Assembly (NCBI RefSeq): GCF_011064545.1
Contig: NZ_JAAMFG010000036.1
Location: forward strand, 186,001-250,000
From: Wenzhouxiangella sp. XN24
GTDB taxonomy: Bacteria > Pseudomonadota > Gammaproteobacteria > Steroidobacterales > XN24
Direction of reading: 5' to 3'
Length of the DNA: 64,000 nt
The notes below the pieces were generated by a model. The model ran no database searches and was not told where the DNA came from. It saw nothing but the letters and a program-made list of their open reading frames with translations. This document shows positions 4,966 through 25,579 of this stretch, one piece after another (position 1 is the first letter of the stretch; every line of letters starts with the position of its first letter). The translations under genes were made by a program, and so were the position numbers.

Positions 4966-5852
4966 GCGACTTTGCTCCCGCGCCGGCGTGGCGCCTTGCC
5001 CGCATTCCTGCCGTCATCCGTCGCCGGCTGCGCCGCGCCTGCCGGTGCCGCCGAGCCGCCCAGGAAGGCATTGGCCTTCTTCTTCAGGGTCGCGAAGAAC
5101 ATGTCGGGGGCGGCGCGCTTGAGCAACAGTCCGACGCGCGCCTCCGCGTGCGGCAGGATCATGAAGTCCTTCTTGCGGGCGCCGCGGCGGATCAGGCGGG
5201 CCACGTCCGCGGCGTCCAGCGACGACTTCTCCATCAGCTTCAGTGCCACGCGCCGGGATTCCTCGCTGCCGCGGAAGTCGTCCAGGAGGTTCGTCTTGAA
5301 GAAGGACGGACAGGCCACGCTGACCTCCACGCCGTGCGGCGACAACTCGAGGCGCAGGGTCTCGGAGAGCGAGATCACGCCGGCCTTAGAGACGTTGTAG
5401 GCCGCCACGCCCGGCGGCGAGGCGAAGCCGGCGGCCGAAGCGATGTTGATGACATGGCCCGCGCCGGCGCGGATCATGGCGGGGACGAAAGCGCGCGTCA
5501 CGGCGACCACGCCGAACAGGTTCACCTCGAGAATCCGGCGCCAGTCCGCATCGCTGGTGTCCACTACGGTGCCCGAGCCCGCGATTCCCGCGTTGTTCAC
5601 CAGGATATCGAGGCCATGCCAGCCGCGACCGATGGCGGTCGCCGCTGCCGTCACAGAGGCGTTGTCCGTGACGTCGCATTCCAGCACCAGCGCCTTGCCG
5701 CCGGCCGCCTCGACCTCGACGCCCACCGCCGCCGCGGTCTCCCCGTCGCGATCCAGCACGGCGACCCGCGCGCCGGCGCGGGCGTATTCGAGGGCCAGGG
5801 CGCGCCCAAGGCCGCTGCCTGCACCGGTAATGACAACCCGTTCTTTTTTCAT
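4962..5852 (-). CDS. Short-chain dehydrogenase/reductase
   Basis: This 296-residue classical SDR has the cofactor motif TGAGSGLG (residues 9-16), the NNAG structural motif near residue 86, a catalytic Ser near 139 and YNVSK (Tyr152, Lys156). A C-terminal extension of about 40 residues ends in a basic tail (RRRGSK), longer than minimal SDRs of about 250 residues. It is the first gene of the minus-strand operon; the ATG at 5852 follows an ACGAGGC ribosome binding site. Direct repeats upstream (5866-5895) are candidate regulatory sites. Substrate unknown; relatives oxidise or reduce hydroxyacyl, steroid or alcohol substrates. Confidence 0.85.
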   Translation of the reverse strand: MKKERVVITGAGSGLGRALALEYARAGARVAVLDRDGETAAAVGVEVEAAGGKALVLECDVTDNASVTAAATAIGRGWHGLDILVNNAGIAGSGTVVDTSDADWRRILEVNLFGVVAVTRAFVPAMIRAGAGHVINIASAAGFASPPGVAAYNVSKAGVISLSETLRLELSPHGVEVSVACPSFFKTNLLDDFRGSEESRRVALKLMEKSSLDAADVARLIRRGARKKDFMILPHAEARVGLLLKRAAPDMFFATLKKKANAFLGGSAAPAGAAQPATDDGRNAGKAPRRRGSKVA

Positions 5853-5865
5853 GGTGCCTCGTCTG

Positions 5866-5895
5866 ACATGATGTCTGCGGAAAACGTACATGATG
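5866..5895. repeat. Direct repeat ACATGATG x2, two helical turns apart
   Basis: The 8-mer ACATGATG occurs at 5866-5873 and again at 5888-5895, 22 bases apart start to start, in the intergenic region between the divergent SDR and phosphatase genes. Spacing of about two helical turns fits a dimeric or cooperative regulator, but nothing else identifies one. Confidence 0.35.
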
Positions 5896-5990
5896 CACGA
5901 CCCAGCGACCTTTGTTGACCTCCGCCCGGCCGCCGCGCCACTCCGGCCCGCCGCGCCGCCCGATTCCCCCCGATGCGAGCCCGGCCCGTC

Positions 5991-6707
5991 ATGGCGGTGA
6001 TTTACCTGATTCGTCACGGCCAGGCCTCCTTCGGCAGCGAGGATTACGACTGCCTGTCCGAGCTCGGCCGCCGCCAGGCCGGGCTGCTCGGCGCGTACCT
6101 GCGAGCGCGCGCGCCGTTCGACACGCTGCTCAGCGGGGCGCTGCTGCGCCAGCAGGACACCGCGACGGAGATCGCAGGAAGCTTCGGCGCCCGCGCCCCG
6201 GCGGTGCATGTCGCCGAGGCCTTCAACGAGTACGACCACGAGGGCGTCATCCGCGCCTACCTGCCGCACTTCATGGCCGAAGTCGGCGCGCCCCGACAGC
6301 TCGCGGAAGCCGACGTGTTCCGCGACCACAAGCTGTTCGAGTTCGCATTCCGTTTCATGATCAAGGCGTGGATGGACAACACGGCCCACGACCATGCGCC
6401 CCTCGAAACCTGGCGGGAGTTCTGCCACCGGGTCAGCACCGGACTCGAGGACGTACTCGCCCTGCACGGCCCCAAGGCCCGGGTGGCGATCGTCACGTCG
6501 GGCGGCACGATCGCCGCGGCGTTGCGTGCGGTCCTCGGCCTCTCGAACAAGCGCACCCTGTCGATCAACTGGAGCATCTACAACGCCTCGCTGACGCAGC
6601 TGTATTACGGTCGCTCGGCGCGCCACGAAGACGCTCTGCTGCTCGGCTTCAACAGCGTCTCCCACCTCGAATCCGAAGGCGGCCGCGAGCTGATCACGTT
6701 CCGCTAG
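5991..6707 (+). CDS. Histidine phosphatase (phosphoglycerate-mutase-like) family protein
   Basis: This protein of about 238 residues has the branch-1 histidine phosphatase signature IYLIRHGQ at its N-terminus (catalytic His9 within RHG) and a second-half IVTSGGTI strand where the family's second conserved His region is expected; the residue there is Ser, not the usual His (usual form VSHGG). The acid region SGALLRQQDTA is present. An in-frame ATG at 5973 adds six residues (MRARPV); 5991 was chosen because family members typically begin two to four residues before the first strand. Likely a phosphatase of small molecules or phosphopeptides; substrate unknown. It precedes a ZIP transporter by 33 bases. 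Confidence 0.8.
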   Translation: MAVIYLIRHGQASFGSEDYDCLSELGRRQAGLLGAYLRARAPFDTLLSGALLRQQDTATEIAGSFGARAPAVHVAEAFNEYDHEGVIRAYLPHFMAEVGAPRQLAEADVFRDHKLFEFAFRFMIKAWMDNTAHDHAPLETWREFCHRVSTGLEDVLALHGPKARVAIVTSGGTIAAALRAVLGLSNKRTLSINWSIYNASLTQLYYGRSARHEDALLLGFNSVSHLESEGGRELITFR

Positions 6708-13611: not shown

Positions 13612-13998
13612 ATGCGCAAGCGAAGAATGCGGGATCGCGTCGGCCCACCCGCGACCATTCTCGGCCCCGGCGCCGAACTGAATGGGTCCTTGCAGGGCGA
13701 AGGCCACTTCCTCATCGCCGGACGCGTCATCGGCGATGCGGACATCGAGGGTGCGCTGACGCTGGCGGCGGGCGGGCACTGGCGTGGCGCGATCCGGGCC
13801 GACGACGTGATCCTGGCCGGTGAACTGGACGGCGAACTGCTCGCACGGGGCCGGGTCGAGATCACCGCCTCGGCGCATATCCGCGGGCGCGTGGTCGCCG
13901 GAGGCATCTCGATTTCCGCCGGGGCCGTGGTCGAAGCGGAACTGCAATCGACCGGCGAGGGCGAGATCGTCAGCTTCGACGAGCGGCGCGGCGACTGA
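13612..13998 (+). CDS. Bactofilin
   Basis: This 128-residue protein consists of a short basic N-terminus (MRKRRMRDR) and a bactofilin beta-helix domain (about residues 15-118) with the expected periodic GxxxxGxI pattern (GSLQGEGHFLIAGRVIGD, GRVEITASAHIRGRVVAG). Bactofilins polymerise without nucleotide into membrane-associated filaments and act in cell shape, stalk formation, motility or envelope positioning. It overlaps the following GGDEF-EAL gene by one base (TGATG), so the scaffold and the c-di-GMP enzyme are probably co-expressed. Confidence 0.85.
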   Translation: MRKRRMRDRVGPPATILGPGAELNGSLQGEGHFLIAGRVIGDADIEGALTLAAGGHWRGAIRADDVILAGELDGELLARGRVEITASAHIRGRVVAGGISISAGAVVEAELQSTGEGEIVSFDERRGD

Positions 13999-15881
13999 TG
14001 GAGGGCACGGGCATCGCGCTGGTGATCGCAGGGCTGCTGATGCTGGCGGCAGGCATGGCGCTCGCATGGCTGGGGACGCGGCGCATGCGGCAGGCGCGTC
14101 CTGCGCCGCCGCCCCCGGAAAAGGCCGACGCCGAAAAATCGCTCGACGCTGCGCGGTGGACCTACCAGTTCCTCGAGCAGGTGCTCGACCGCGTGCAGGA
14201 CGGCGTGATCGTCAGCGACGAGCAGGGCCGCATCCTGGAGGCCAACGAGGCCGCTGCGACGATCCTGGGGCGCAAGGCCGAGGAACTGGGCGGCGACGAC
14301 CTGCACACCCTGGCGTCCCCGAGCGTGTTCGACGACACCGATATCCTGCTGCCCCAGGGCAGCACCCGGCTGAAGACCGCGGCCGACCCCGCACTCGCCG
14401 TGTCTTTCACGAGCTGTCCGCTGGTCGAGGCCGACGGCGTGCGTCGCTGGGTGCTGGTGTTCCGCAACCTCAGCGGCGAGCACCGCAGCCAGAAACGCAT
14501 CCGCTACCTGGCCCGCTACGACGCGCTCACGAGGGTGCCGAACCGCATGGAATTCCAGCATCGCCTGCAGCAGGCGATCGCGCGGGCGAGACGGTCCACG
14601 ACCCGCGCCGCCCTTCTCTATCTCGACGTCGACGGCTTCAAGGACGTCAACGACCGGCTCGGCCATCCCATCGGCGACCGCGCCCTGGAAATCCTGTCCC
14701 GCCGCCTCGTCGAGGCCACCGAGTCCGGCACCCTGATCGGCCGGCTCGGCGGTGACGAGTTCGCCATCGTGATCGAGGGCCTGCGGCCCGACGAGGATCC
14801 GCGCGCCACGGTCGCCGCGACCGTCCGGATGCTGCTCGATCGGCTCGGACAAAAATTTCATGTCGAGGGCCACGAGGTCGTGCTCACCGCGAGCATCGGC
14901 GTGGCGCTGTTCCCCGACAACGCCGACAACGTCATCGACATGATCCGTAATGCCGACGCCGCGATGTATCACGCCAAGCACAACGGCGGGAATACCTACG
15001 GCTTCTATTCGCCGGAGATGAACCGGGATGCCGTCGACCGGCTGCTGCTCAAGAGCGAGCTGCGCAGCGCCATCCGGCGGAACGAGTTCCAGGTGGTCTA
15101 CCAGCCGAAAGTGGACCTGCGCAACGGCCGGATCGCCGGATGCGAGGCGCTGCTGCGCTGGCGCCATTCCCGGCGCGGCGACGTGCCGCCGGCCATTTTC
15201 ATCCCGCTTGCGGAAGAAAACACGCTGATTTTCGAGATCGGCGACTGGGTGCTCGACCGGGTCTGCACGGACTTCTCCCTCTGGCAGAAACGGGTCCCAT
15301 GGCCCGGCCGCGTGGCGGTGAACCTGTCCCTCCGGCAGCTGCGCCAACGCAATTTCGTCGCCGGGGTCGAAGAGATTTTCCGCCGCCACGAACTGGCGCC
15401 CTCCTGCGTGGAACTCGAGATCACGGAATCGACCCTGATCGATCACGGCGAGAAGACCCTGCGCATGCTCGATCGCCTTTACCAGCTCGGGCTGCATCTC
15501 TCGATCGATGACTTCGGCACCGGCTACTCGTCGCTCTCGAGCCTGCAGCATTTTCCCATCGGCACGCTGAAGATCGACCAGAGCTTCGTCTGCGACGCCG
15601 ACCAGGAACGCAACAGCGCAGCCATCGTCGGGGCCATCGTCGGCCTCGGACGCAGTCTCGGCATGGACGTCGTCGCGGAAGGCATCGAGACGACGGCCCA
15701 GCTGGCGCTGCTGCAGCGCGTGAGCTGCACCTTCGGCCAGGGACACCTGTTCGGCGAGCCGGTCACGGGCGAACGCTACCTCGAGATGCTCGTGGCCCAG
15801 CAGGAGGGCCCCCCACCGCATGCCGCGCTGCTGAACCGCGTCGAGGATCACGGCCAGAGCGAGGGATACGGCCGCCGCTGA
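13998..15881 (+). CDS. Membrane-anchored PAS-GGDEF-EAL protein
   Basis: This 627-residue bifunctional c-di-GMP protein has an N-terminal membrane helix (residues about 4-28), a PAS domain (about 52-165), a GGDEF domain with intact GGDEF (near 251-255) and an EAL domain starting with EALLRW (near 383). EAL landmarks are present: NLSLRQL, ELEITES, DDFGTGYSSL, KIDQSF, VAEGIET and a GQGHLF loop. Both synthesis and hydrolysis of c-di-GMP therefore look chemically possible, although in such hybrids one activity commonly dominates. The start overlaps the bactofilin stop (TGATG), suggesting localisation or scaffolding of c-di-GMP signalling by a bactofilin filament. It ends six bases before the convergent permease gene. 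Confidence 0.88.
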   Translation: MEGTGIALVIAGLLMLAAGMALAWLGTRRMRQARPAPPPPEKADAEKSLDAARWTYQFLEQVLDRVQDGVIVSDEQGRILEANEAAATILGRKAEELGGDDLHTLASPSVFDDTDILLPQGSTRLKTAADPALAVSFTSCPLVEADGVRRWVLVFRNLSGEHRSQKRIRYLARYDALTRVPNRMEFQHRLQQAIARARRSTTRAALLYLDVDGFKDVNDRLGHPIGDRALEILSRRLVEATESGTLIGRLGGDEFAIVIEGLRPDEDPRATVAATVRMLLDRLGQKFHVEGHEVVLTASIGVALFPDNADNVIDMIRNADAAMYHAKHNGGNTYGFYSPEMNRDAVDRLLLKSELRSAIRRNEFQVVYQPKVDLRNGRIAGCEALLRWRHSRRGDVPPAIFIPLAEENTLIFEIGDWVLDRVCTDFSLWQKRVPWPGRVAVNLSLRQLRQRNFVAGVEEIFRRHELAPSCVELEITESTLIDHGEKTLRMLDRLYQLGLHLSIDDFGTGYSSLSSLQHFPIGTLKIDQSFVCDADQERNSAAIVGAIVGLGRSLGMDVVAEGIETTAQLALLQRVSCTFGQGHLFGEPVTGERYLEMLVAQQEGPPPHAALLNRVEDHGQSEGYGRR

Positions 15882-15887
15882 CGGCCC

Positions 15888-18416
15888 TCACTCCTCCCGC
15901 AGATCCTGCGCCACCGGACGGCGGCCGGTGCGCCACGCCGGATAGAGACCGGCGAGCAGGGCGGCCCCCATGGCCAGCAACAGGCCCTGTCCCAGTTCCC
16001 CCGCGCTGACCTCGAAACTCATCGTCCAGCCGAAGGCGCGCCGGTTGATGACGAACACCAACAGGCCGGCGAGCGCGATCCCGAGCGGCATCGCGAACAG
16101 CCCGGCGGCGAAACCCAGCAGTCCCGTCTGCGCGACGACCAGCGCGCGCAGCTGGCGCGGCAGCCAGCCCACGGCGCGCAGCACCGCGGTCTCTCGCAGG
16201 CGCTCGAGCTGCAATGCCTGCAGGGCCGAGAGAATGCCCAGGAAAGCCACCAGCCCGACCAGCACCTGCAAGACACGGGTGATCGTGAAGGTCCGGTCGA
16301 AGACCGCCAGCGAAGCGGCGCGCAGCTCGGCGTTGTTCGACAGCCAGATCGAGCTGCCGGACGGCAGGACGCTCTCGATGGCGGCCCGCGCCTCCTCGGG
16401 TGGCGTGTCCGCCGTGAAACTTATCCCGATTCCCTCGGCGCACTCGTCCCCCCAGAGCTGCCGATAGCGCTCGCGGTGCAGCGCGATGATGCCGCGGTCC
16501 GTCGTGTAGTCGCGGAACACGCCGGCGACCGGGAAGGTTTTTTCCCCGGCGGGCGTCGGCAGGGTGATCTCGTCGCCGACCCGTGTGCCACGGCGCAAGG
16601 CCCACGGCTCCGACACGAGCACCGCTTCGCCCGTCCTGAATCTCGCCCGGGCCGTCTCGGGATCCCCTTGCAGGATTTCCGAGCCCAGGCCCACCCTGCC
16701 TGCATCCACGGCCCACAGGCGCCACTCCTCGCCCCCGACCTGCAGCCGCCGCCGTTGCGAGAAGCCGACGTCCGTCACCCCGGGCAAGGCGGCCAGGTCG
16801 TCCGTGAGCTCCCCGATTCCGCCGGCGCCGCGGCACCAGGCGTCATCGACAGCCAGGTAGAAGTCCGCAATCAGGGTCTGGCGCAACCAGTCGTCCACGC
16901 TCAGGCGAAAGCTGCTGACCATCAGGCCCACCCCGATCACCGTGGCCACCGCGACGGTGAGCGCTGCCACGGAGACGCCCGTGCGACTCAACGAGGCGCT
17001 CGTGCCGCGGATGGCCATTCTCATCGGTACGGGCGCGCGGCGCGGCAGCAACCGGTCGAAGAGCATCATCAAGCCCGCGGTCGCCGGCGGCGTGGCGAAG
17101 GCGAAGGCAAGAAACACGCCGAACAGGCCGGCAAACGATATGAACAGGGAATTCCGGCCCGCGGCCAGCAGCATGACGGCAAGCACCAGGGCCACCCCGC
17201 CGGCCGCGAGCAGCCAGGGCAGGCGCCGGCGCGTGCGGCGTTCCATCGACGCGCGGGACAGGACGGCGCGCGGCGGAATGCTGGCCGCTTCCAGTGCGGG
17301 GCCGAGTGCAGCGAGCAGCGTCACTCCCAGGCCCAGCGCCGCGGCCTTGACGAAAGGCCAGCCGGCCAGCGCAAGCGCATCGACCCGCAGCCTGAAGTAG
17401 AGATCGTCGATGGTGCGCACGACCAGCCCGGTCAGGCCGGAGCCCAGCAATGCCCCGACGATCAGTCCCAGCAATACGCCCGGTACGCCCACCGTCAGGG
17501 CCTCGACGAGGATGCTCCGCACGAGGCCGCGCCTGTCCACGCCCACGCTGCGCAGGATGCCGATGGTCCGGGTGCGCCGCACGACCAGGAAATTCATGGT
17601 GCTGTAAATGAGGAATGCGCCGACCAGCAAGGCGAGCAGGGACAGCGCCGTGAGGTTGAGCCGGAAGGCCCGTGTCATGCCGAAGGTCGCTTGCGAACGC
17701 GCCGCCGAGGCGACCAGCTCGACCTCCGGAGGCAGGCTCCGCGCCAGGGCCGCCGCCGCCTCGTCGGACGCGATCAGGTCGATGCGGCTCAGGGCACCGA
17801 CCATGCCGAGCAGCTCCTGGGCCGTCGCGATATCGGCGAAGACATAACCTGACGAGGCGGCGGCCCGGTCGGGGTCGGGGACCAGGCGCCCCGCGATGCG
17901 CAACGCACGCTCGCCCTCGGCCGTCGTGACCGTCACGGTGTCGCCGCGCGCGAGACCCAGTTCGTCGGCGAGCGGAGCGGGAAGCGCGACGGTTCCGGGC
18001 TCCGTGAGCAACGCCAGCAGGTCCACGTCGCCGGTCGCGACATCGAGGTCGTCGCGGAACGGCGCCTCGACGAAGGGATCCAGTCCAAGCAGCACGACAC
18101 GGCGCCCGCCGGGGAACGTCACTGCGCCCTCCACGCTCGGCGCCGCGGCGACCGGTTCGGGCTGTTCGTGGATCGCCGCGCGCAACTCGGCGTAGAGCAT
18201 CTCGTCGAGGCGCCCGGAGCGCGGCAGCACCTGGTGCGTGGCGCGGCCCATGACCATGTCCATGCTCGCGTCGAAAGCACGCTTGGCGCTTGCGCCGGCG
18301 AGGTCGACGCCCAGCACCACCGCCACGCCCAGTGCGACGCCGGCGACCGCAAGCGCGTACTGCCAGGGATGGCGAGCGAAGAATCGCCTTCCGGAGCGCG
18401 ACAGCAGCCGGCTCAC
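15888..18416 (-). CDS. FtsX-type ABC transporter permease (large, two FtsX domains)
   Basis: This 842-residue membrane protein begins with one transmembrane helix (YALAVAGVALGVAVVLGVDL), a large periplasmic domain, three helices (FtsX domain 1, near LSLLALLVGAFLIYSTMNFLVVRR), further helices, a second periplasmic domain and three terminal helices (domain 2). This is the ten-helix type VII arrangement used by large LolE/MacB-like and lysophospholipid-handling systems. The GTG start at 18416 overlaps the stop of the LolD-like ATPase gene (GTGA); a longer frame to 18527 lies inside that gene and was rejected. The pair lies just downstream of the psp operon on the same strand, so an envelope lipid or lipoprotein role is plausible. 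Confidence 0.83.
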   Translation of the reverse strand: MSRLLSRSGRRFFARHPWQYALAVAGVALGVAVVLGVDLAGASAKRAFDASMDMVMGRATHQVLPRSGRLDEMLYAELRAAIHEQPEPVAAAPSVEGAVTFPGGRRVVLLGLDPFVEAPFRDDLDVATGDVDLLALLTEPGTVALPAPLADELGLARGDTVTVTTAEGERALRIAGRLVPDPDRAAASSGYVFADIATAQELLGMVGALSRIDLIASDEAAAALARSLPPEVELVASAARSQATFGMTRAFRLNLTALSLLALLVGAFLIYSTMNFLVVRRTRTIGILRSVGVDRRGLVRSILVEALTVGVPGVLLGLIVGALLGSGLTGLVVRTIDDLYFRLRVDALALAGWPFVKAAALGLGVTLLAALGPALEAASIPPRAVLSRASMERRTRRRLPWLLAAGGVALVLAVMLLAAGRNSLFISFAGLFGVFLAFAFATPPATAGLMMLFDRLLPRRAPVPMRMAIRGTSASLSRTGVSVAALTVAVATVIGVGLMVSSFRLSVDDWLRQTLIADFYLAVDDAWCRGAGGIGELTDDLAALPGVTDVGFSQRRRLQVGGEEWRLWAVDAGRVGLGSEILQGDPETARARFRTGEAVLVSEPWALRRGTRVGDEITLPTPAGEKTFPVAGVFRDYTTDRGIIALHRERYRQLWGDECAEGIGISFTADTPPEEARAAIESVLPSGSSIWLSNNAELRAASLAVFDRTFTITRVLQVLVGLVAFLGILSALQALQLERLRETAVLRAVGWLPRQLRALVVAQTGLLGFAAGLFAMPLGIALAGLLVFVINRRAFGWTMSFEVSAGELGQGLLLAMGAALLAGLYPAWRTGRRPVAQDLREE

Positions 18417-19129
18417 GGCGTGGAGATCTCGAGCCGGCCCTCGTGGATGGTGAACACGCGATCCGCCACGCCGATCACTTCGGGGCTGTGCGTGGCCATG
18501 ACCAGCGTGGTCCCCTCGCGGCGGCAAAGATCGTCAAGCAGGCCGAGCACCTGGCGGGCGGTCTCGAGGTCCAGGTTCCCGGTGGGCTCGTCGGCGATCA
18601 CCAGGCCCGGACGGTGGATCAGGGCTCTCGCCAGGGCGATCCGCTGCTGCTCGCCGCCGGACATCTCCTCCGGGAAGGAATCGCCCCGCCCGGGCAGCCC
18701 GACCGTCTCCAGCCACTGCCGCGCGCGCGCGTCGGCTTCATCGCGCGGCACCCCGAGCAGGTCCAGCGGCAACAAGAGGTTCTCGAGCGCAGTGAGGGTG
18801 GGCACGAGATTGAAAAACTGGAATACGAAGCCGACCCCCCGGCGCCTGAGCCGCGCGAGACGGTCCTCGGAGAGCGTCGTGAGCGCCTCGCCGCCGATGC
18901 GGACTTCGCCGCGGCTGGGGCGATCGAGGCCGCCGATGATGTTCAGCAGGGTGCTTTTGCCCGAGCCGGAACGGCCCACGAGGACGATCAGCTCGCCGCG
19001 GGCGATGCGAGCGGTGACGCCGTCGAGCACCTGGTGTGGCTGGCCGTGCTCGTCATAGTCCTTGCAGACGCCGTCGAGCTCGACGTGAATGGCCTGGTCC
19101 TGGTGAATTACTGGGTCTTGCGCCGGCAT
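18413..19129 (-). CDS. LolD/MacB-type ABC ATPase
   Basis: This 238-residue ATPase has Walker A GRSGSGKST (near residue 52), Q-loop FVFQFFNLVPTLTA, signature MSGGEQQR, Walker B LVIADEPTGNLD and H-loop ATHSPE, all characteristic of the LolD/FtsE/MacB branch that drives mechanotransmission permeases. It overlaps the permease gene by four bases. Upstream, 74 bases separate it from the last psp gene. Expected to act at the inner membrane with the FtsX-type partner; substrate unknown. Confidence 0.88.
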   Translation of the reverse strand: MPAQDPVIHQDQAIHVELDGVCKDYDEHGQPHQVLDGVTARIARGELIVLVGRSGSGKSTLLNIIGGLDRPSRGEVRIGGEALTTLSEDRLARLRRRGVGFVFQFFNLVPTLTALENLLLPLDLLGVPRDEADARARQWLETVGLPGRGDSFPEEMSGGEQQRIALARALIHRPGLVIADEPTGNLDLETARQVLGLLDDLCRREGTTLVMATHSPEVIGVADRVFTIHEGRLEISTP

Positions 19130-19203: not shown

Positions 19204-19419
19204 TCAGGCATCCCTTTCGAGGTCACGAAACTGTCGGCGCACATCGTACCCCGAATCCGTGACGATGCGCTCCAGCACGCGGATGCGCTCTTCGAGATCG
19301 ACGAGGCGCCGATCGTCGGCCGGCGCACTCGTCTTCGCGCGGTGTTTAAGCCAGCTCGAGAACATCGAGCTGGCGATGGCGAGGAACACGATGACGACGA
19401 CCATTTCGAAAGGATTCAC
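19204..19419 (-). CDS. Small PspB-like protein with a PspC-type tail
   Basis: This 71-residue protein has one N-terminal membrane helix (FEMVVVIVFLAIASSMFSSWL) and a charged helical C-terminus (RRLVDLEERIRVLERIVTD...). The topology is that of PspB, but its last part (LERIVTDSGYDVRRQF RDLE) matches the end of the neighbouring PspC protein (MERYVTSRSFGLDREF KDLE) and the tail of Escherichia coli PspC. The start is GTG at 19419 with a strong GAGGAGAG site upstream. It is the last of five psp genes, 82 bases after the second pspC gene. Probable psp component at the inner membrane; exact role unknown. Confidence 0.65.
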   Translation of the reverse strand: MNPFEMVVVIVFLAIASSMFSSWLKHRAKTSAPADDRRLVDLEERIRVLERIVTDSGYDVRRQFRDLERDA

Positions 19420-19501
19420 GGCGAACTCTCCTCAATTCCATCCAGCGACACCGCGACACGCGGCGGCGCGTAGCCGGCCCGCGGGACCGGAGTCGATGAT
19501 T

Positions 19502-19897
19502 CTAGCGTCCCTCGCTTCGCTCGAGGTCCTTGAACTCCCGGTCCAGGCCGAAGCTGCGCGACGTGACGTAACGCTCCATGCGTTGCAGCTTGGCGTCGGC
19601 GGCCCGAAACCGGTGCCGCACCTCGGAGAGGGTTTCCGCCGGGGAAACCCGCAAGCCCCGCCAGAACTCGCGGTCGTCCTCGTCGCGGTAGAGCGTCACC
19701 GGCTTGGTCGGCAACACCATCCAGAGCGCCAGGTAGACCAGGAAGATCGCCGGGAAGAAGAACATCGCGACGACCGTCAGGATGCGGGTCAACGCCAGGT
19801 CGAAGCCGAAATACTCGGCGAGGCCCGCGCACACTCCGCCGAACTTGCCGTTCACCGGATCGCGATAGAACCTGACCGGATTGGGTTCGCGCTTCAT
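19502..19897 (-). CDS. pspC: PspC-domain protein 2
   Basis: This 131-residue protein contains a PspC domain: FYRDPVNGKFGGVCAGLAEYFG, then a hydrophobic hairpin (ILTVVAMFFFPAIFLVYLALWMVLP). A long cytoplasmic or periplasmic tail ends in LQRMERYVTSRSFGLDREF, equivalent to the E. coli PspC tail. In the enterobacterial system PspC acts with PspB at the membrane to release PspA from PspF under envelope stress. The ATG at 19897 overlaps the stop of the first pspC gene (ATGA). Of the two PspC proteins here this is the more complete one by comparison with E. coli (119 residues). Confidence 0.82.
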   Translation of the reverse strand: MKREPNPVRFYRDPVNGKFGGVCAGLAEYFGFDLALTRILTVVAMFFFPAIFLVYLALWMVLPTKPVTLYRDEDDREFWRGLRVSPAETLSEVRHRFRAADAKLQRMERYVTSRSFGLDREFKDLERSEGR

Positions 19898-20181
19898 GCC
19901 TTCATCTCCCCGCGATCGCCGCGACGCGAACGCCACAGCTCACGTTCGTCCCGTCCACCGTAATAACGCAGGGGCTTGCCGGGCAGCAGCAGGCCGGCCA
20001 CGACATACACCAGCAGGGTCGGCATGGTGAACAGGAGGAGCGACAGCGCGGCGACGATGCGCAGGGCGCCGAGACGGAAACCGAACTGGTCGGCAAGCCC
20101 GGCGCAGACGCCTAGGATCATCCCGTTCGCAGGATCGCGGTAAAACACGGTGCCGGCGGGGGCGTGGCGATGCCGCCTCAT
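19894..20181 (-). CDS. PspC-domain protein 1 (short, no tail)
   Basis: This 95-residue protein has the same PspC core as its neighbour (FYRDPANGMILGVCAGLADQFG followed by a two-segment hydrophobic hairpin ending LLLPGKP) but stops after a short basic stretch, without the MERYVTS-type tail. The ATG at 20181 overlaps the pspB stop (ATGA, 20178-20181) and its own stop overlaps the next pspC start. It appears to be a tandem duplicate of the PspC core. Likely an accessory psp membrane subunit. Confidence 0.78.
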   Translation of the reverse strand: MRRHRHAPAGTVFYRDPANGMILGVCAGLADQFGFRLGALRIVAALSLLLFTMPTLLVYVVAGLLLPGKPLRYYGGRDERELWRSRRGDRGEMKA

Positions 20182-20405
20182 GTCCTTCTCCTCCAGTCGG
20201 GGACCTGGTCGTCCAGGATCGTTTCCAGCGCGTTGATGCGACTCTCCATCCGCTGCGCGTCCTGCCACAGCTCCTCCAGCATCCTCTGCTCGTCGCCGGA
20301 CAGCGTGCGCGAGGACTTCCACTTGGTCACGTAGTGAAGAATCAGCATCAGCGGCAGCACGACGGCGGCCAGGATGATCATAAAGACACCGAAGATCTCG
20401 CTCAT
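20178..20405 (-). CDS. pspB: Phage shock protein B
   Basis: This 75-residue protein closely follows E. coli PspB (74 residues): one N-terminal membrane helix (FMIILAAVVLPLMLILHY) and a cytoplasmic helix with LSGDEQRMLEELWQDAQRM and ALETILDDQVPDWR. PspB and PspC sense inner-membrane stress and bind PspA, freeing PspF. It lies 48 bases after pspA and overlaps the first pspC gene. Assignment is confident from length, topology and the DDQVPDWR ending. Confidence 0.88.
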   Translation of the reverse strand: MSEIFGVFMIILAAVVLPLMLILHYVTKWKSSRTLSGDEQRMLEELWQDAQRMESRINALETILDDQVPDWRRRT

Positions 20406-20453: not shown

Positions 20454-21131
20454 TCAGGCTTCACCGCGCGAATCTTCGCCGACGCGGCGCTTCAGCGCCG
20501 CCAGCTCGGCCTCGACCGATTCCGCCGACTCCAGGCTGGCGAACTCGCGGCCGAGATCCTTTCGCTGGCCGAGATCATAGGCCTCCACACGGCCCTCGGC
20601 ATCCTCGAGCTTGCGCTCGAACTGCTCGAACCTGACCAGCGCGTCGTCGATCTTCGTCTCGTGGATCTGGCGGCGCATCTCGAGGCGGTGGCCGGCGGTG
20701 CGATGCCGCAGGATCATGGCCTTCTGCCGGGTCTTGGCGTCCGCCAGTTTCTCCTGCAGGCGCGCCATGTCTTCGTTCAGCTGGGCCAGCACCGTCTCGA
20801 CCTGCTGTCCTTGCGCCTCGAGGCCGGTGATGCGTTCCTCGGCATGCGCTTTCTCGGCGAGCGCCGCACGCGCGAGATCGTCGCGCCCCTTGCGCACCGC
20901 CAGTTCGGCCTTGCGCGCCCAGTCGTCTCCCTCGCGGCGCGCATCGCCCAGGCGGCGATCCAGCTGCTTGCGATCCGCGATGGCCCGCGCAGCCGCAGAG
21001 CGGACCTCGACGAGCGTGTCTTCCATCTCCTGGATGATCAGCCGGACCATCTTCTCCGGGTCTTCGGCCTTCTCCAGCAGAGCGTTGATGTTCGAGTTCA
21101 CGATGTCAGAAAAGCGGGAAAAAATGCCCAT
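20454..21131 (-). CDS. pspA: Phage shock protein A
   Basis: This 225-residue PspA/IM30 (ESCRT-III-like) protein has an amphipathic N-terminal helix (MGIFSRFSDIVNSNINALL), the family motif AEDPEKMVRLIIQEMEDTLVEVR in the first long helix and then nearly continuous coiled coil. PspA binds stressed inner membrane to limit proton leakage and inhibits PspF in the unstressed cell. A GGAGG site precedes the ATG at 21131, and a sigma-54 promoter lies 32-47 bases upstream. It heads the operon pspA-pspB-pspC-pspC-pspB-like. Confidence 0.93.
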   Translation of the reverse strand: MGIFSRFSDIVNSNINALLEKAEDPEKMVRLIIQEMEDTLVEVRSAAARAIADRKQLDRRLGDARREGDDWARKAELAVRKGRDDLARAALAEKAHAEERITGLEAQGQQVETVLAQLNEDMARLQEKLADAKTRQKAMILRHRTAGHRLEMRRQIHETKIDDALVRFEQFERKLEDAEGRVEAYDLGQRKDLGREFASLESAESVEAELAALKRRVGEDSRGEA

Positions 21132-21162: not shown

Positions 21163-21178
21163 TGCAGAAACCGTGCCA
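21163..21178 (-). promoter_or_regulatory. Sigma-54 promoter of the psp operon
   Basis: Read on the minus strand, TGGCAC (21178-21173) is followed by five bases and CTGCA (21167-21163). This matches the -24/-12 sigma-54 consensus TGGCAC-N5-TTGCA except for one T to C, and keeps the invariant GG and GC. It lies 32 bases upstream of pspA, and the divergent gene encodes the sigma-54 activator PspF, so the assignment is well supported by context. The AT-rich stretch 21180-21290 is where PspF upstream sites would be expected. Confidence 0.85.
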
Positions 21179-21297: not shown

Positions 21298-22305
21298 ATG
21301 GAAATGGACCACAACACGCCGATGCTCGGCGCCTCGCCTGCATTCGGCGCGATGCTGGAACAGGTCTCGCGTCTCGCTCCGCTGGACCGGCCGGCGCTGA
21401 TCATCGGCGAGCGCGGCACCGGCAAGGAACTCGTGGCCGCACGCCTGCATTACCTGTCGCCGCGCTGGGAACAGCCCCTCGTCAAGCTCAACTGTGCGGC
21501 GCTGACCGAGAGCCTGCTCGAGTCCGAGCTGTTCGGTCACGAGGCCGGCGCATTCACCGGCGCGACCCGGCGCCACATCGGCCGCTTCGAGCGCGCGGAC
21601 GGGGGCAGCCTGTTCCTCGACGAACTGGGCACTCTTCCGGCCCGCATGCAGGAGAAGATCCTGCGTGTCATCGAGTACGGCGAGTTCGAGCGCGTCGGCG
21701 GCAGCGAGACGCTGCAGTGCGACGTGCGCATCGTCGGCGCGACGAACGAGAACCTGCCCCTGCTCGCGCATGAGGGACGGTTTCGCGCGGACCTGCTGGA
21801 CCGGCTGGCGTTCGACGTGATCAACGTGCCGCCGCTGCGGGCCCGTCCCGAGGACATTCTCGAACTCGCGCAGCATTTCGCAGTGGGGTTCACCGCCGAG
21901 CTCAAGCGACCGTTCTTCCCCGGTTTCAGCGACCGGGCCCTCGATGCATTGCTGGCCTGGCCCTGGCCGGGCAACGTGCGTGAGTTGAAGAACGCCGTCG
22001 AGCGCTCGATCTATCGCGCGGCCGAGCCCGAGGCACCCGTCGACGAAATCCACTTCGATCCCTTCGCGCAAGCGCAGCGGCCCGCCGGCGCCACGCCACC
22101 GCCGGCTGCACTGCCGCTGGACTTTCGTGAAGTCGTCGGCGAATTCGAACGACGGCTGCTGACCCGGGCCCTCTCTGCCAGCGACGGCAACCGGCGCCGC
22201 GCCGCAGAATCGCTCGGGCTGAGTTACGACCAGCTGCGGGGACTGCTGCGCAAGCACGGGATCGGCGGCAATGGGCGGGCCGGCCGGCCGCCGGCCCGGT
22301 CCTGA
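21298..22305 (+). CDS. pspF: Sigma-54 activator PspF
   Basis: This 335-residue enhancer-binding protein lacks a receiver domain, as PspF does. The AAA+ domain has Walker A GERGTGKE (near 38), the sigma-54 contact loop GAFTGA (near 84-89), Walker B GGSLFLDELG and an arginine-finger region FRADLLDRL. A Fis-type helix-turn-helix lies at the C-terminus (GNRRRAAESLGLSYDQLRGLLRKHGI). It is divergent from pspA with the sigma-54 promoter between them. The start at 21298 (MEMDHN) follows a TATAAA -10 at 21286-21291 very closely, implying a short or absent leader; the in-frame ATG at 21262 would add 12 residues. PspA inhibition of PspF is the expected control. Confidence 0.92.
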   Translation: MEMDHNTPMLGASPAFGAMLEQVSRLAPLDRPALIIGERGTGKELVAARLHYLSPRWEQPLVKLNCAALTESLLESELFGHEAGAFTGATRRHIGRFERADGGSLFLDELGTLPARMQEKILRVIEYGEFERVGGSETLQCDVRIVGATNENLPLLAHEGRFRADLLDRLAFDVINVPPLRARPEDILELAQHFAVGFTAELKRPFFPGFSDRALDALLAWPWPGNVRELKNAVERSIYRAAEPEAPVDEIHFDPFAQAQRPAGATPPPAALPLDFREVVGEFERRLLTRALSASDGNRRRAAESLGLSYDQLRGLLRKHGIGGNGRAGRPPARS

Positions 22306-22314
22306 GAAGTGTCT

Positions 22315-25104
22315 TCAGGCCTGCCCGGCGACCGACGCCTTGTGCCAGCCCCCGTCGGAACCGGCTTCCTCCCGCAACAACAGCGCAGCAAATTCCTTCG
22401 GCGGCAGCGGACGACTGAACAGGTAGCCCTGCATCAGGTCGCAGCCGAGCTCACCCAACAGCACCCGTTGCGCGTCGTCCTCCACGCCTTCGGCGACGAT
22501 CGCCATGTCCAGTCGTTTGCCGAGGGAAATGATCGCGCCGACCATTGCCGCCTGTCGGACGTCCGTGGCCAGCGTACGAATGAACGCCCTGTCCAGCTTG
22601 AGTATGTTGGCCGGCAGCTGGGTGAGGTACACCAGCGAAGAATATCCCGTGCCGAAATCGTCGAGCGCGATCTGCACACCGATCTCCCTGAGACGGGCGA
22701 GCGCCTGGACCGTGAGCTGCGACCTGTCCACCGCGGTCTGCTCGAGGATCTCCAGCTCCAGGCGTCGCGGGTCGAGGTCGCTGGCCGCCAATACGCGGGA
22801 GACCGAGTCCACGAATCCCGGCCCGCTGAATTGCGCCGGTGCGACGTTCACTGACATTGCGATCGGGGGGAGACCCGCGCGATCCCACGCGGCGAGCTGC
22901 GCGCAAGCGGTCCGCATCACCCAGTCACCAAGACGATCCGACATGCCGATCTCGTCCGCCAGGCCGAGGAAATCCCCCGGCATGAGCAGCTTGCCACCGG
23001 ACGGCAGCTAGCGGATCAGGGCTTCGGCACCCGTGATCCGCCCTGTCGCAATCTCGACCTTGGGCTGGAAGTGAAGCAGGAACTCGTTGCGATCCAGCGC
23101 CGAGCGAAGACGCTGGACGTTGCCGAAACGCTCCCTGGCCCGGGTATTGGTTTCCTCCGAGTAGAAACGGTAGCTGCCGCGACTCTTCACCTTGGCCTCG
23201 TGCATGGCGGAATCCGCACCCTTCAGCAGATCCTCGAAGGTCGCGCCATTGTCCGGAAAGAGTGCGATACCGATGCTGGCCGCGGAGCTCACCGAATGCC
23301 CCTGCAGTGAGACAGGCTGAGCAAGGGCCGCGAGCAGTTCCTCCGCGCGGTTGCTCGCGACCGTGGTTCTTGCGTCATACGAAACATCTGGCACGAGGAC
23401 GACGAATGCATCGCCGTTCAGCCGCGCCAGGGATTCGCCTTCCTTCAGGTGTTGCAACATCCGGCCCGCAAGCTGCACCAGCAACTCGTCGCCCAGCGCA
23501 TGCCCCAGGCCGTCGTTGACGGCCTTCAAATCATCCAGGTCCAGCAGCAGCACCGCCGCGGCCGAAGCGCTCTTGCCGGCCCTGTCGATCGCTTGCTCGA
23601 CCCGGTCGCGCAACACCACCTGGTTAGGCAACTGCGTCAGGCCGTCGAAATGCGTATTACGGTAGAGCTTTTCTTCCCAGGCCAGCCCGGTCTGCGCTAC
23701 CGCGAGGCGGTCGGCGATGCTGCGTCCTGCCTGCTGCAGGTCGCCTCGCTGGGCGGGAGATTCCCGGTAGCCTGCGATCAGCGCCACCTGCCGCTCACCG
23801 GCCGGCGGGGTCGAGAACACCCAGGCACAAGACAAACCCTGTGCGAAAAGATGGCCCATCATCTCGCCCCGAGCGTGCTCGGTCCCGACCTCGAGCCAGC
23901 GCGTCGCGCCCGAAAGCAGTTCGCGCATAGCCGTGTCCACCGGGGCTTTCGCACCTGACACTTGCTGGCGGCCTTGGGCCAGCCGCCAACGCAGTTCCCA
24001 CGATGGGTCGGATGCCAGGCCGTCGAATCGAACTACCGCGACGAGATCGCAATCGAGCGCTGCCGGCGTGTCCTCCATCACGGTCTTCAACAGCGTATCG
24101 ATGGGTGCGCCGGACAGGACTGCGCGATCCAGTTCCGCGAGCAGTCGCAGCAGGCTGAACTTGTTCTTGAGGCGACGCCGCATCACGTCGAAGGCGCGCC
24201 CCACGTCGTCGAACTCGTCGCCACCGGACACCTTCACCACCTGGTGGAAACGGCCGTCCGCGAGCCGGTCTGCGGCCAGGACCAGGTCGTCGAGCGGCTG
24301 AAACTGCCGGCGAATCTGCCGCATGGCCAGCCAGATGGCGACGGCCAATGCCAGTGCCAGGACAACCGGAAAAACGCGGTGAAACCGGCCCAGCGCGGCG
24401 AGCACCTCGGCTTGCGGCTGCATCGTGACGGCGTAAAAGCCGGGGCTGGCGTAAGCCGCAGGCAAAAGGGCACGCCAATAGGCGACCAGGTACTCCTGCC
24501 CACCCATTCGCCGGCCGATCACGCCAGCGTGTTCATCCGATTTCAGGGCCAGGCCGAGCGGTACCTGCGGAGCCTCCTCGGAGCAGAACAAGACCGTCCC
24601 GTCCAGGCTGAGTGCACAGTAGGGCCGTGCCATCACTTCGTTCCGCCACAGGGCGAGCGGACGCAACTCGGCATGGACGATGCGCGACCCGGGTGGGCGC
24701 AGCATGAACATGGCGAGCTGCCCACCGGACGTGATCCGCAGCACGAAACCGCCTTGTTCCAGGTGCTGCCGCTCCGCGGCATCGAGCGTGACTCCTTCCT
24801 CGCTATCCGTCAGCCAGCCGACGCGGGAGAAGCCTTGGCTGAACAATGCGCCGGCCGAGCCGGCATCGATCATCTCTGTCTCGAGCGCCGCGAGCGTTTG
24901 CGCATAGCTCGCCAGTCGGCCGACCACCAGCATTCCGTAATTCTTGCTTTCGGCGCGCAACTGCGCCTCGCCCACCTCGACCAGGTGGCCGCGCATGTGG
25001 AGATAGGAGAACGCGCCGAAGAACAGCAAGGGACCCAGCGCCACAACCAGGAACAGCACGAACAGTCGTCGCGCGACGCGGCTTTGCAGGTAAGCGCCCA
25101 GCAT
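22315..25104 (-). pseudogene. GGDEF-EAL protein interrupted by an in-frame amber codon
   Basis: Read through, this is one 929-residue sensor. It has a membrane helix (about residues 8-30), a periplasmic domain, a second helix (FPVVLALALAVAIWLAM), a HAMP-like linker, a GAF-like region, a GGDEF domain with the degenerate site LNGDAF (near 563), and an EAL domain. A TAG at 23010-23008 (codon 699) replaces the Trp of EALIRW; downstream residues LPSGGKLLMPGDF continue in the same frame and register, so a single TGG to TAG change explains it. The two pieces are 23008-25104 (stopped after EALIR) and 22315-23007, where an internal ATG at 22983 could restart. The remaining EAL residues (NVAPAQF, DDFGTGYSSL, KLDRAF, AEGVE, QGYLF) are intact, so it may be a recent mutation, a suppressed stop or a sequencing error. 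The start lies one base after the pseudopilin stop. Confidence 0.8.
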
Positions 25105-25105
25105 G

Positions 25106-25579
25106 TCAGTGATCCGCGGCCAACCCGATAAACGCTCCGTTTCCGGCACGCAGGATGTCATCCCGCGCGGCGCGCGCGGTGAGCGCCAGGCTGCTGACAC
25201 CATCCGGCCCCAAGCTGTAGAGATCGAAATCGCTGTTGAGCGGATTGAGATTACGATCCTTGCGCACCATGCCCCGGGGCACGCCGATCGCGATGTTCAG
25301 ATAAACGTACGGGTTGCCCCAAGGGTCCGACGGAATCGTGCGCCCCAGCGCAGCAAGGTCCGGCGGGAACGCGAAATTGTCCGAGCGATAGCGCTCTATG
25401 AAGGCACTCAACTCGGTCAGCGTGGCGACGGCCTGCGCGGTCCTGGCGCGGTTCACCGCCCCCTGGTAAGCAGGTATCGCGATCGCCGCAATCAGGCTGA
25501 CGACGACCAGCGCCATCATCAATTCCAGCAACGTGAAGCCGCCGGCCGCACGAACGCTTCCTCTGTTCGAATCAGCCAT
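25106..25579 (-). CDS. Type II secretion/type IV pilus pseudopilin (GspG-like)
   Basis: This 157-residue protein has the prepilin signature [24 protein letters not shown], with cleavage expected after the second Gly and Glu at mature position 5. It continues with a long N-terminal helix and a small C-terminal domain with [10 protein letters not shown] and [12 protein letters not shown], the pattern of GspG-type major pseudopilins. An AAAGGA site precedes the ATG at 25579. No other gsp core genes adjoin it; the next gene is the GGDEF-EAL sensor, one base away. It may be an orphan secretion or pilus subunit whose use is linked to c-di-GMP. Confidence 0.82.

Follow-up and report, generated by a model that had tools for sequence, protein, structure and literature searches.

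Results

An enlarged psp operon

The window (the whole 64,000-nucleotide stretch of DNA analysed here, from the 3.29 Mb genome of Wenzhouxiangella sp. XN24) carries five psp genes on the minus strand, set between pspF and an ABC transporter in the order pspF<->pspA-pspB-Cs-Cf-B' (Table 1). Here Cs denotes a tail-less PspC, Cf a full-length PspC and B' a 71-residue protein; all five genes lie where the original prediction had put them, and the family scores agree with it. PspA, PspF, PspB and full-length PspC all score above their curated cut-offs, pspF is divergent from pspA, and a candidate sigma-54-type promoter, recognised by sequence match alone, lies between these two genes, features that together place the locus among proteobacterial Psp systems. 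The promoter motif occurs once in the whole window, upstream of pspA and on the correct strand; since about 2 chance matches per window are expected with one mismatch allowed, it is chiefly its position that favours the candidate. No sigma-70-type promoter or operon-strand terminator was found between positions 19000 and 21400. In the window, pspB-Cs and Cs-Cf each overlap by 4 bases, as they do in most loci, and B', whose GTG start is preceded by a GAGGAG site, begins 82 bases past Cf, a gap that is mostly below 60 bases across loci.

Table 1. Positions of the psp features in the window and the evidence for each.
Feature	Position	Strand	Evidence
pspF, divergent sigma-54 activator	21301..22305, start approximate	+	TIGR02974 485.7 bits, cut-off 443.55
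Candidate sigma-54-type -24/-12 promoter for pspA, TGGCACG-N5-TGCA	21163..21178	-	0 mismatches
pspA	20454..21131	-	TIGR02977 289.8 bits, cut-off 242.95
pspB, canonical	20178..20405	-	TIGR02976 87.8 bits, cut-off 51.7
Cs, tail-less PspC	19894..20181	-	PF04024 52.9 bits, cut-off 25
Cf, full-length PspC, core and tail	19502..19897	-	TIGR02978 129.8 bits, cut-off 104
B', single-helix membrane anchor of 71 residues bearing a PspC-type tail	19204..19419	-	hhalign to PspC tail and PspB

The locus resembles the E. coli pspF-pspABC(DE) system in its divergent pspF, the position of its sigma-54-type promoter, the order pspA-pspB-pspC and the possession of a full-length PspC with a tail, but it adds a tail-less PspC ahead of the full-length one and, behind that, B'. 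The latter is distinct from PspD, which in its E. coli form is scored by the B' model at -1.8 bits. An ABC ATPase and an FtsX/MacB-type permease lie directly downstream of B' (15891-19129, minus strand); a tblastn comparison of 45 loci placed this ATPase near psp in L021-L025 and L063 (62-87% identity) and in L028 (52%). Large genes that, judged by eye, seem to encode GGDEF/EAL-like signalling enzymes stand on both sides of psp (13998-15881, plus strand; 22315-25203, minus strand).

Two PspC proteins, one without a tail

Against the full-length PspC model TIGR02978, Cf is covered over positions 3-121, while Cs is covered over positions 3-80 only and reaches 65.1 bits against a cut-off of 104, which sets it apart from full-length PspC with a tail. 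Cs nevertheless belongs to the PspC core family by its PF04024 score, and it stops shortly past the second membrane segment. A decaying or ragged truncation is ruled out by the conserved C-terminal end of the protein, E..[FL]W (a charged residue, then F or L and W), which is present in 49/52 Cs sequences, and by dN/dS values of 0.20-0.31 in within-genus pairs.

Profile comparison pairs Cs with Cf at 99.9% (E 2e-34, 43% identity), which supports the duplication of PspC that the original prediction had proposed. This duplication is judged old because Cs and Cf separate across families in a phylogeny of 74 PspC cores, where one side of a branch holds 35 Cf and 1 Cs and the other 26 Cs and 12 Cf, a split that is weak since the tree was built from 89 columns only. 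The Cs proteins of two loci outside the order (L048 and L050) pair with their own Cf on this tree, which suggests separate origins there; however, neither a single origin of all 27 Cs, these two included (p-AU 0.252), nor one of the 25 Cs of the clade (p-AU 0.449) is rejected.

B' between PspB and PspC

In B', a single hydrophobic helix is followed by a basic stretch and then by a charged helix, with ERIVT-x7-RQFRDLE at its end. For the window protein, Pfam gives no match at E<=1, whether to PF04024, to PF06667 or to any other family; against TIGR02978 it matches the tail, positions 82-121, at E 7.5e-5 but far below the cut-off, and against TIGR02976 it reaches 12.6 bits (E 0.13), short of the PspB cut-off of 51.7. 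As this member scores below the cut-off of every Pfam and NCBIfam model, B' has probably been left unnamed in many genomes. Partial matches recur among its relatives: at E<=0.01, the NCBIfam models of PspC and PspB pick up 25 and 20, respectively, of 26 B' proteins, and the Pfam PspB family PF06667 picks up 10.

In profile-profile comparisons, with profiles built in this study, B' matches PspC at 97.1% (E 7.2e-11) over 41 tail columns and PspB at 97.3% (E 1.8e-11, hhalign) over 69 columns in a full-length alignment; PspB and PspC profiles match each other at 82.7%. The relation of the 71-residue protein to PspC tails, on which the original prediction had staked itself, thus holds. Shuffling the B' columns from 29 on, 100 times freely and 100 times with the heptads preserved, never gave a score as high as either of those observed, so the likeness goes beyond coiled-coil periodicity. 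When the profile is halved, the tail matches the PspC tail at 97.3% and 42% identity and the PspB tail at 94.5% and 36%, while the N-terminal half matches PspB at 80% and the PspC core at 1%. B' therefore bridges the two families, since its tail fits the PspC tail best and its N-terminal half fits PspB rather than the PspC core; to this extent, the proposed joining of a PspC tail to a PspB-like body is supported. With PspB it shares full-length profile similarity and the single N-terminal membrane helix; with PspC it shares the C-terminal tail and lacks the core domain PF04024. The tail has VT...L..EF..L in common with PspC tails, where PspB has ILD...P.WR, and the B' model scores E. coli PspC (E 5e-5) and E. 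coli PspB (E 8e-5) about equally. These relations suggest an old kinship among PspB, B' and the PspC tail, which Ravi et al. 2024 (PMC11237479) had already proposed for the first and the last of the three.

The window B' is 72% and 63% identical to its counterparts in two genomes of the same genus, and dN/dS of B' is 0.15-0.34. Its structure model has two helices at low confidence (pLDDT 69), and the predicted structure models in general show helices only; matches of B' to solved structures (best E 0.013) were taken as chance coiled coils, and no solved structure was found for Cf.

Distribution of the layout

In an order-level sample of 39 genomes, in which the sets with B' and with two PspC were compared by hand, the same 27 genomes have both. 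Of the other 12, 4 have one PspC and 8 have none, and B' occurs in none of them. We examined the operons of 25 of the 27 two-PspC genomes (G024 and G028 were left out): all 25 read A-(B)-Cs-Cf-B', with pspB present in 23 and two B' genes in 4 (L021, L029, L037 and L040). The layout had been called unusual, and it is so outside the clade but not within the order.

A 274-genome class sample yielded 11 strong pspA loci in 10 genomes outside the order. Five are A-B-C only (L041, L043, L044, L047 and L049), three have B' with one PspC (L042, L045 and L046), two have Cs-Cf without B' (L048 and L050, with no B' found anywhere in either genome) and one has pspA with a short PspC only (L051). We also examined named psp loci found via PspA, the best 80 of 576 confirmed, two of which duplicate genomes of the first sample (L063 = L024, L070 = L034). 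Among these best 80 of 576, Cs is present in 25, from Woeseiaceae, other gammaproteobacterial MAGs, Rhodanobacter, Frateuria and Dokdonella, and 24 of the 25 have B'. One of these loci, in a Woeseia MAG, is interrupted by a contig end; its pspA lies in two ORFs (L071, 4327-5037), which could reflect either a sequencing error or a genuine break. The one without B' (L081) has a Cs-Cf operon in a genome with a single weak B' match (E 1.9e-4). Of the 55 loci without Cs in the same 80, 52 are A-B-C with no B' in the operon and three have B' (L082, L084 and L121), that of L121 being a partial match more than 700 bases downstream. Cs and B' are thus separable: Cs occurs without B' in L048, L050 and L081, and B' without Cs in the six loci of this kind just named from the two samples and in the arrays described next.

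At the level of the phylum, B' is found in 43/349 genomes, 14 of which belong to one family of another class (f214). In all five loci of this family that were examined (L159-L163), an A-B-C psp operon continues into a tandem array of five or six B'-like genes, whose final member is weak (12-15 bits) in 4/5 loci; on these matches, the arrays are a strong expansion of the B' family inside the psp operon. Of the non-array loci examined from this sample (L164-L178), 15/15 have B' but no other psp gene within 6.5-7.5 kb, so the family is not confined to psp. In two of these (L166 and L168), the lone B' lies downstream of what by eye look like dUTPase and CoaBC genes.

Loss of pspB

Among the named loci with Cs (from the best 80 of 576), pspB is absent in 9/25; it is absent in 0/55 of the others. 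The losses are phylogenetically clustered, and Cs, Cf and B' are retained in all nine. pspA and Cs are separated by 0-36 bases in eight of these loci and by 223 bases in the ninth (L066, Frateuria sp. STR12), where this stretch past pspA (5182-5404) holds no recognisable pspB. In the same locus, the tail of Cf (5680-6069) is degenerate and B' is intact. No PspB above cut-off was found anywhere in the two pspB-less genomes searched. Because pspB has been lost where Cs, Cf and B' are kept, this pattern suggests that B' may be able to take the place of PspB.

Discussion

The window contains a genuine enlarged form of the phage-shock membrane-stress operon, both old and conserved. The family to which its fifth gene belongs, which has no name, consists of tiny membrane proteins that look PspB-like in one half and PspC-tail-like in the other. 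Several elements of this picture have precedents: the C-terminal part of PspC can be a divergent PspB, PspB has been reported as duplicated within psp operons (Ravi et al. 2024, PMC11237479), and many genomes have several PspC domains, for which stimulus integration has been suggested (Popp et al. 2022, PMC9239133). The main-text account of the former has neither a pair of tail-less and full-length PspC nor a PspB-like protein bearing a PspC tail motif, and the latter, as far as its account goes, counts genome-wide without describing an in-operon Cs-Cf pair. A B-C-C-B' layout was not described in the literature searched, which comprised papers under certain licences. Kinship of PspB and the PspC tail, PspB duplicates and multiple PspC are therefore known, while the Cs-Cf pair with B' and the unnamed bridging family would be new.

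The reading that we favour, with a probability of roughly 0.45, is that B' is a second membrane-anchored tail for docking PspA within a conserved five-gene psp operon and that Cs is a sensor core that does not dock. The profile links of B' to the PspC tail and to PspB, the conserved layout, the tight coupling of the genes and the pattern of pspB loss speak for it. It is also suggested by the resemblance of Cs and B' to fragments of E. coli PspC. PspC1-68 was reported to bind PspB but not PspA and not to induce psp, whereas PspC40-119, the membrane segment plus tail, bound PspA and upon overexpression induced psp without PspB; all fragments bound PspB, and PspA binding required the zipper motif of the tail (PMC3068692). 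Cs corresponds to PspC1-68 plus about 25 residues, and B' is like PspC40-119 in having one membrane helix and a tail, but both are natural and separately encoded and the helix of B' is PspB-like. In Yersinia, PspA is reported to be bound by the C-terminal domain of PspC in the on state (PMC5596341). The PspC-type tail of B', on its PspB-like anchor, could thus dock PspA, with B' kept beside PspB and the PspC cores by contacts between helices within the membrane and between coiled coils on the cytoplasmic side. Under stress, B' would help to remove PspA from PspF or would collect PspA at the damaged membrane, while Cs would pair in the membrane and sense without itself being able to bind PspA. 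An operon built in this way would split sensing cores from docking tails, allowing their ratio to vary, and in the pspB-less Woeseiaceae B' probably doubles as the partner of PspC. What counts against this reading is that at low expression in E. coli only full-length PspC, and none of the fragments, was reported to give pIV-dependent induction (PMC3068692). The separability of Cs and B', the B' genes lying outside psp operons and the low confidence of the B' structure model weigh against it too. The interaction evidence for PspA, PspB and PspC comes from enterobacteria only, and published accounts disagree on the topology of the PspC tail.

Alternatively, B' could be a diverged PspB paralogue that stabilises PspC in the membrane, does not bind PspA and owes its PspC-like tail to shared ancestry. 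The full-length alignment with PspB, the PspB-like N-terminal half, the Pfam PspB matches among its relatives and the restriction of pspB loss to operons with B' would all fit. However, the tail is closer to that of PspC than to that of PspB, and most operons retain both B and B', so that we regard this account as somewhat unlikely. We are more doubtful still that the operon encodes two separate complexes responding to different cues, a classic one of B and Cf and another of B' and Cs acting as a two-piece PspC. Cs lacks exactly what B' has, and the two occur together in 27/27 two-PspC genomes and nearly all named Cs loci, but this co-occurrence comes mostly from one clade and so represents few independent events, Cs-Cf operons without B' exist, and B' without Cs is common.

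It is improbable that B' is a small membrane coiled-coil protein of a general kind that psp operons took up for a role that has nothing to do with docking PspA: its phylum-wide spread and the loci away from psp, two of which adjoin a dUTPase-like gene, are what such a protein would show, but its tail is specifically PspC-like and it is found directly inside psp operons of this clade, of scattered gammaproteobacteria and of the f214 arrays, three settings at the least. Finally, recent domain shuffling or gene conversion placing the Cf tail on a pspB duplicate, as the original prediction held, can be set aside: the predicted motif is indeed present in both B' and Cf of the window, although with seven rather than six residues between VT and R (ERxVT-x7-RxFxDLE), but B' tails show no higher identity to the Cf tail encoded in the same genome (0.325) than to those of other genomes (0.335; p 0.96, 50 loci, leaving out the duplicates L063 and L070 and the degenerate tails of L066 and L082), so the tail was not recently copied from the neighbouring Cf, and B' also occurs in distant lineages and free-standing outside psp operons.

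PspB, B' and the PspC tail may all be docking helices tethered to the membrane and belong to a single family, of which B' would be the living intermediate; PspC in this clade may also exist as two pieces acting in trans (Cs as core, B' as tail) beside the intact protein, and in the B-less Woeseiaceae a Cs-Cf-B' trio may have replaced the PspBC sensor. We offer this as a speculative and, taken whole, unlikely extension.

It is still debated by what means PspB and PspC detect damage to the membrane and pass the signal on to PspA, and on which face of the membrane the PspC tail lies. With core and tail on separate natural genes and PspB dropped in some genomes, these operons would offer ready-made constructs that separate sensing from PspA docking, and they bring to notice, in B', a widespread small membrane protein.
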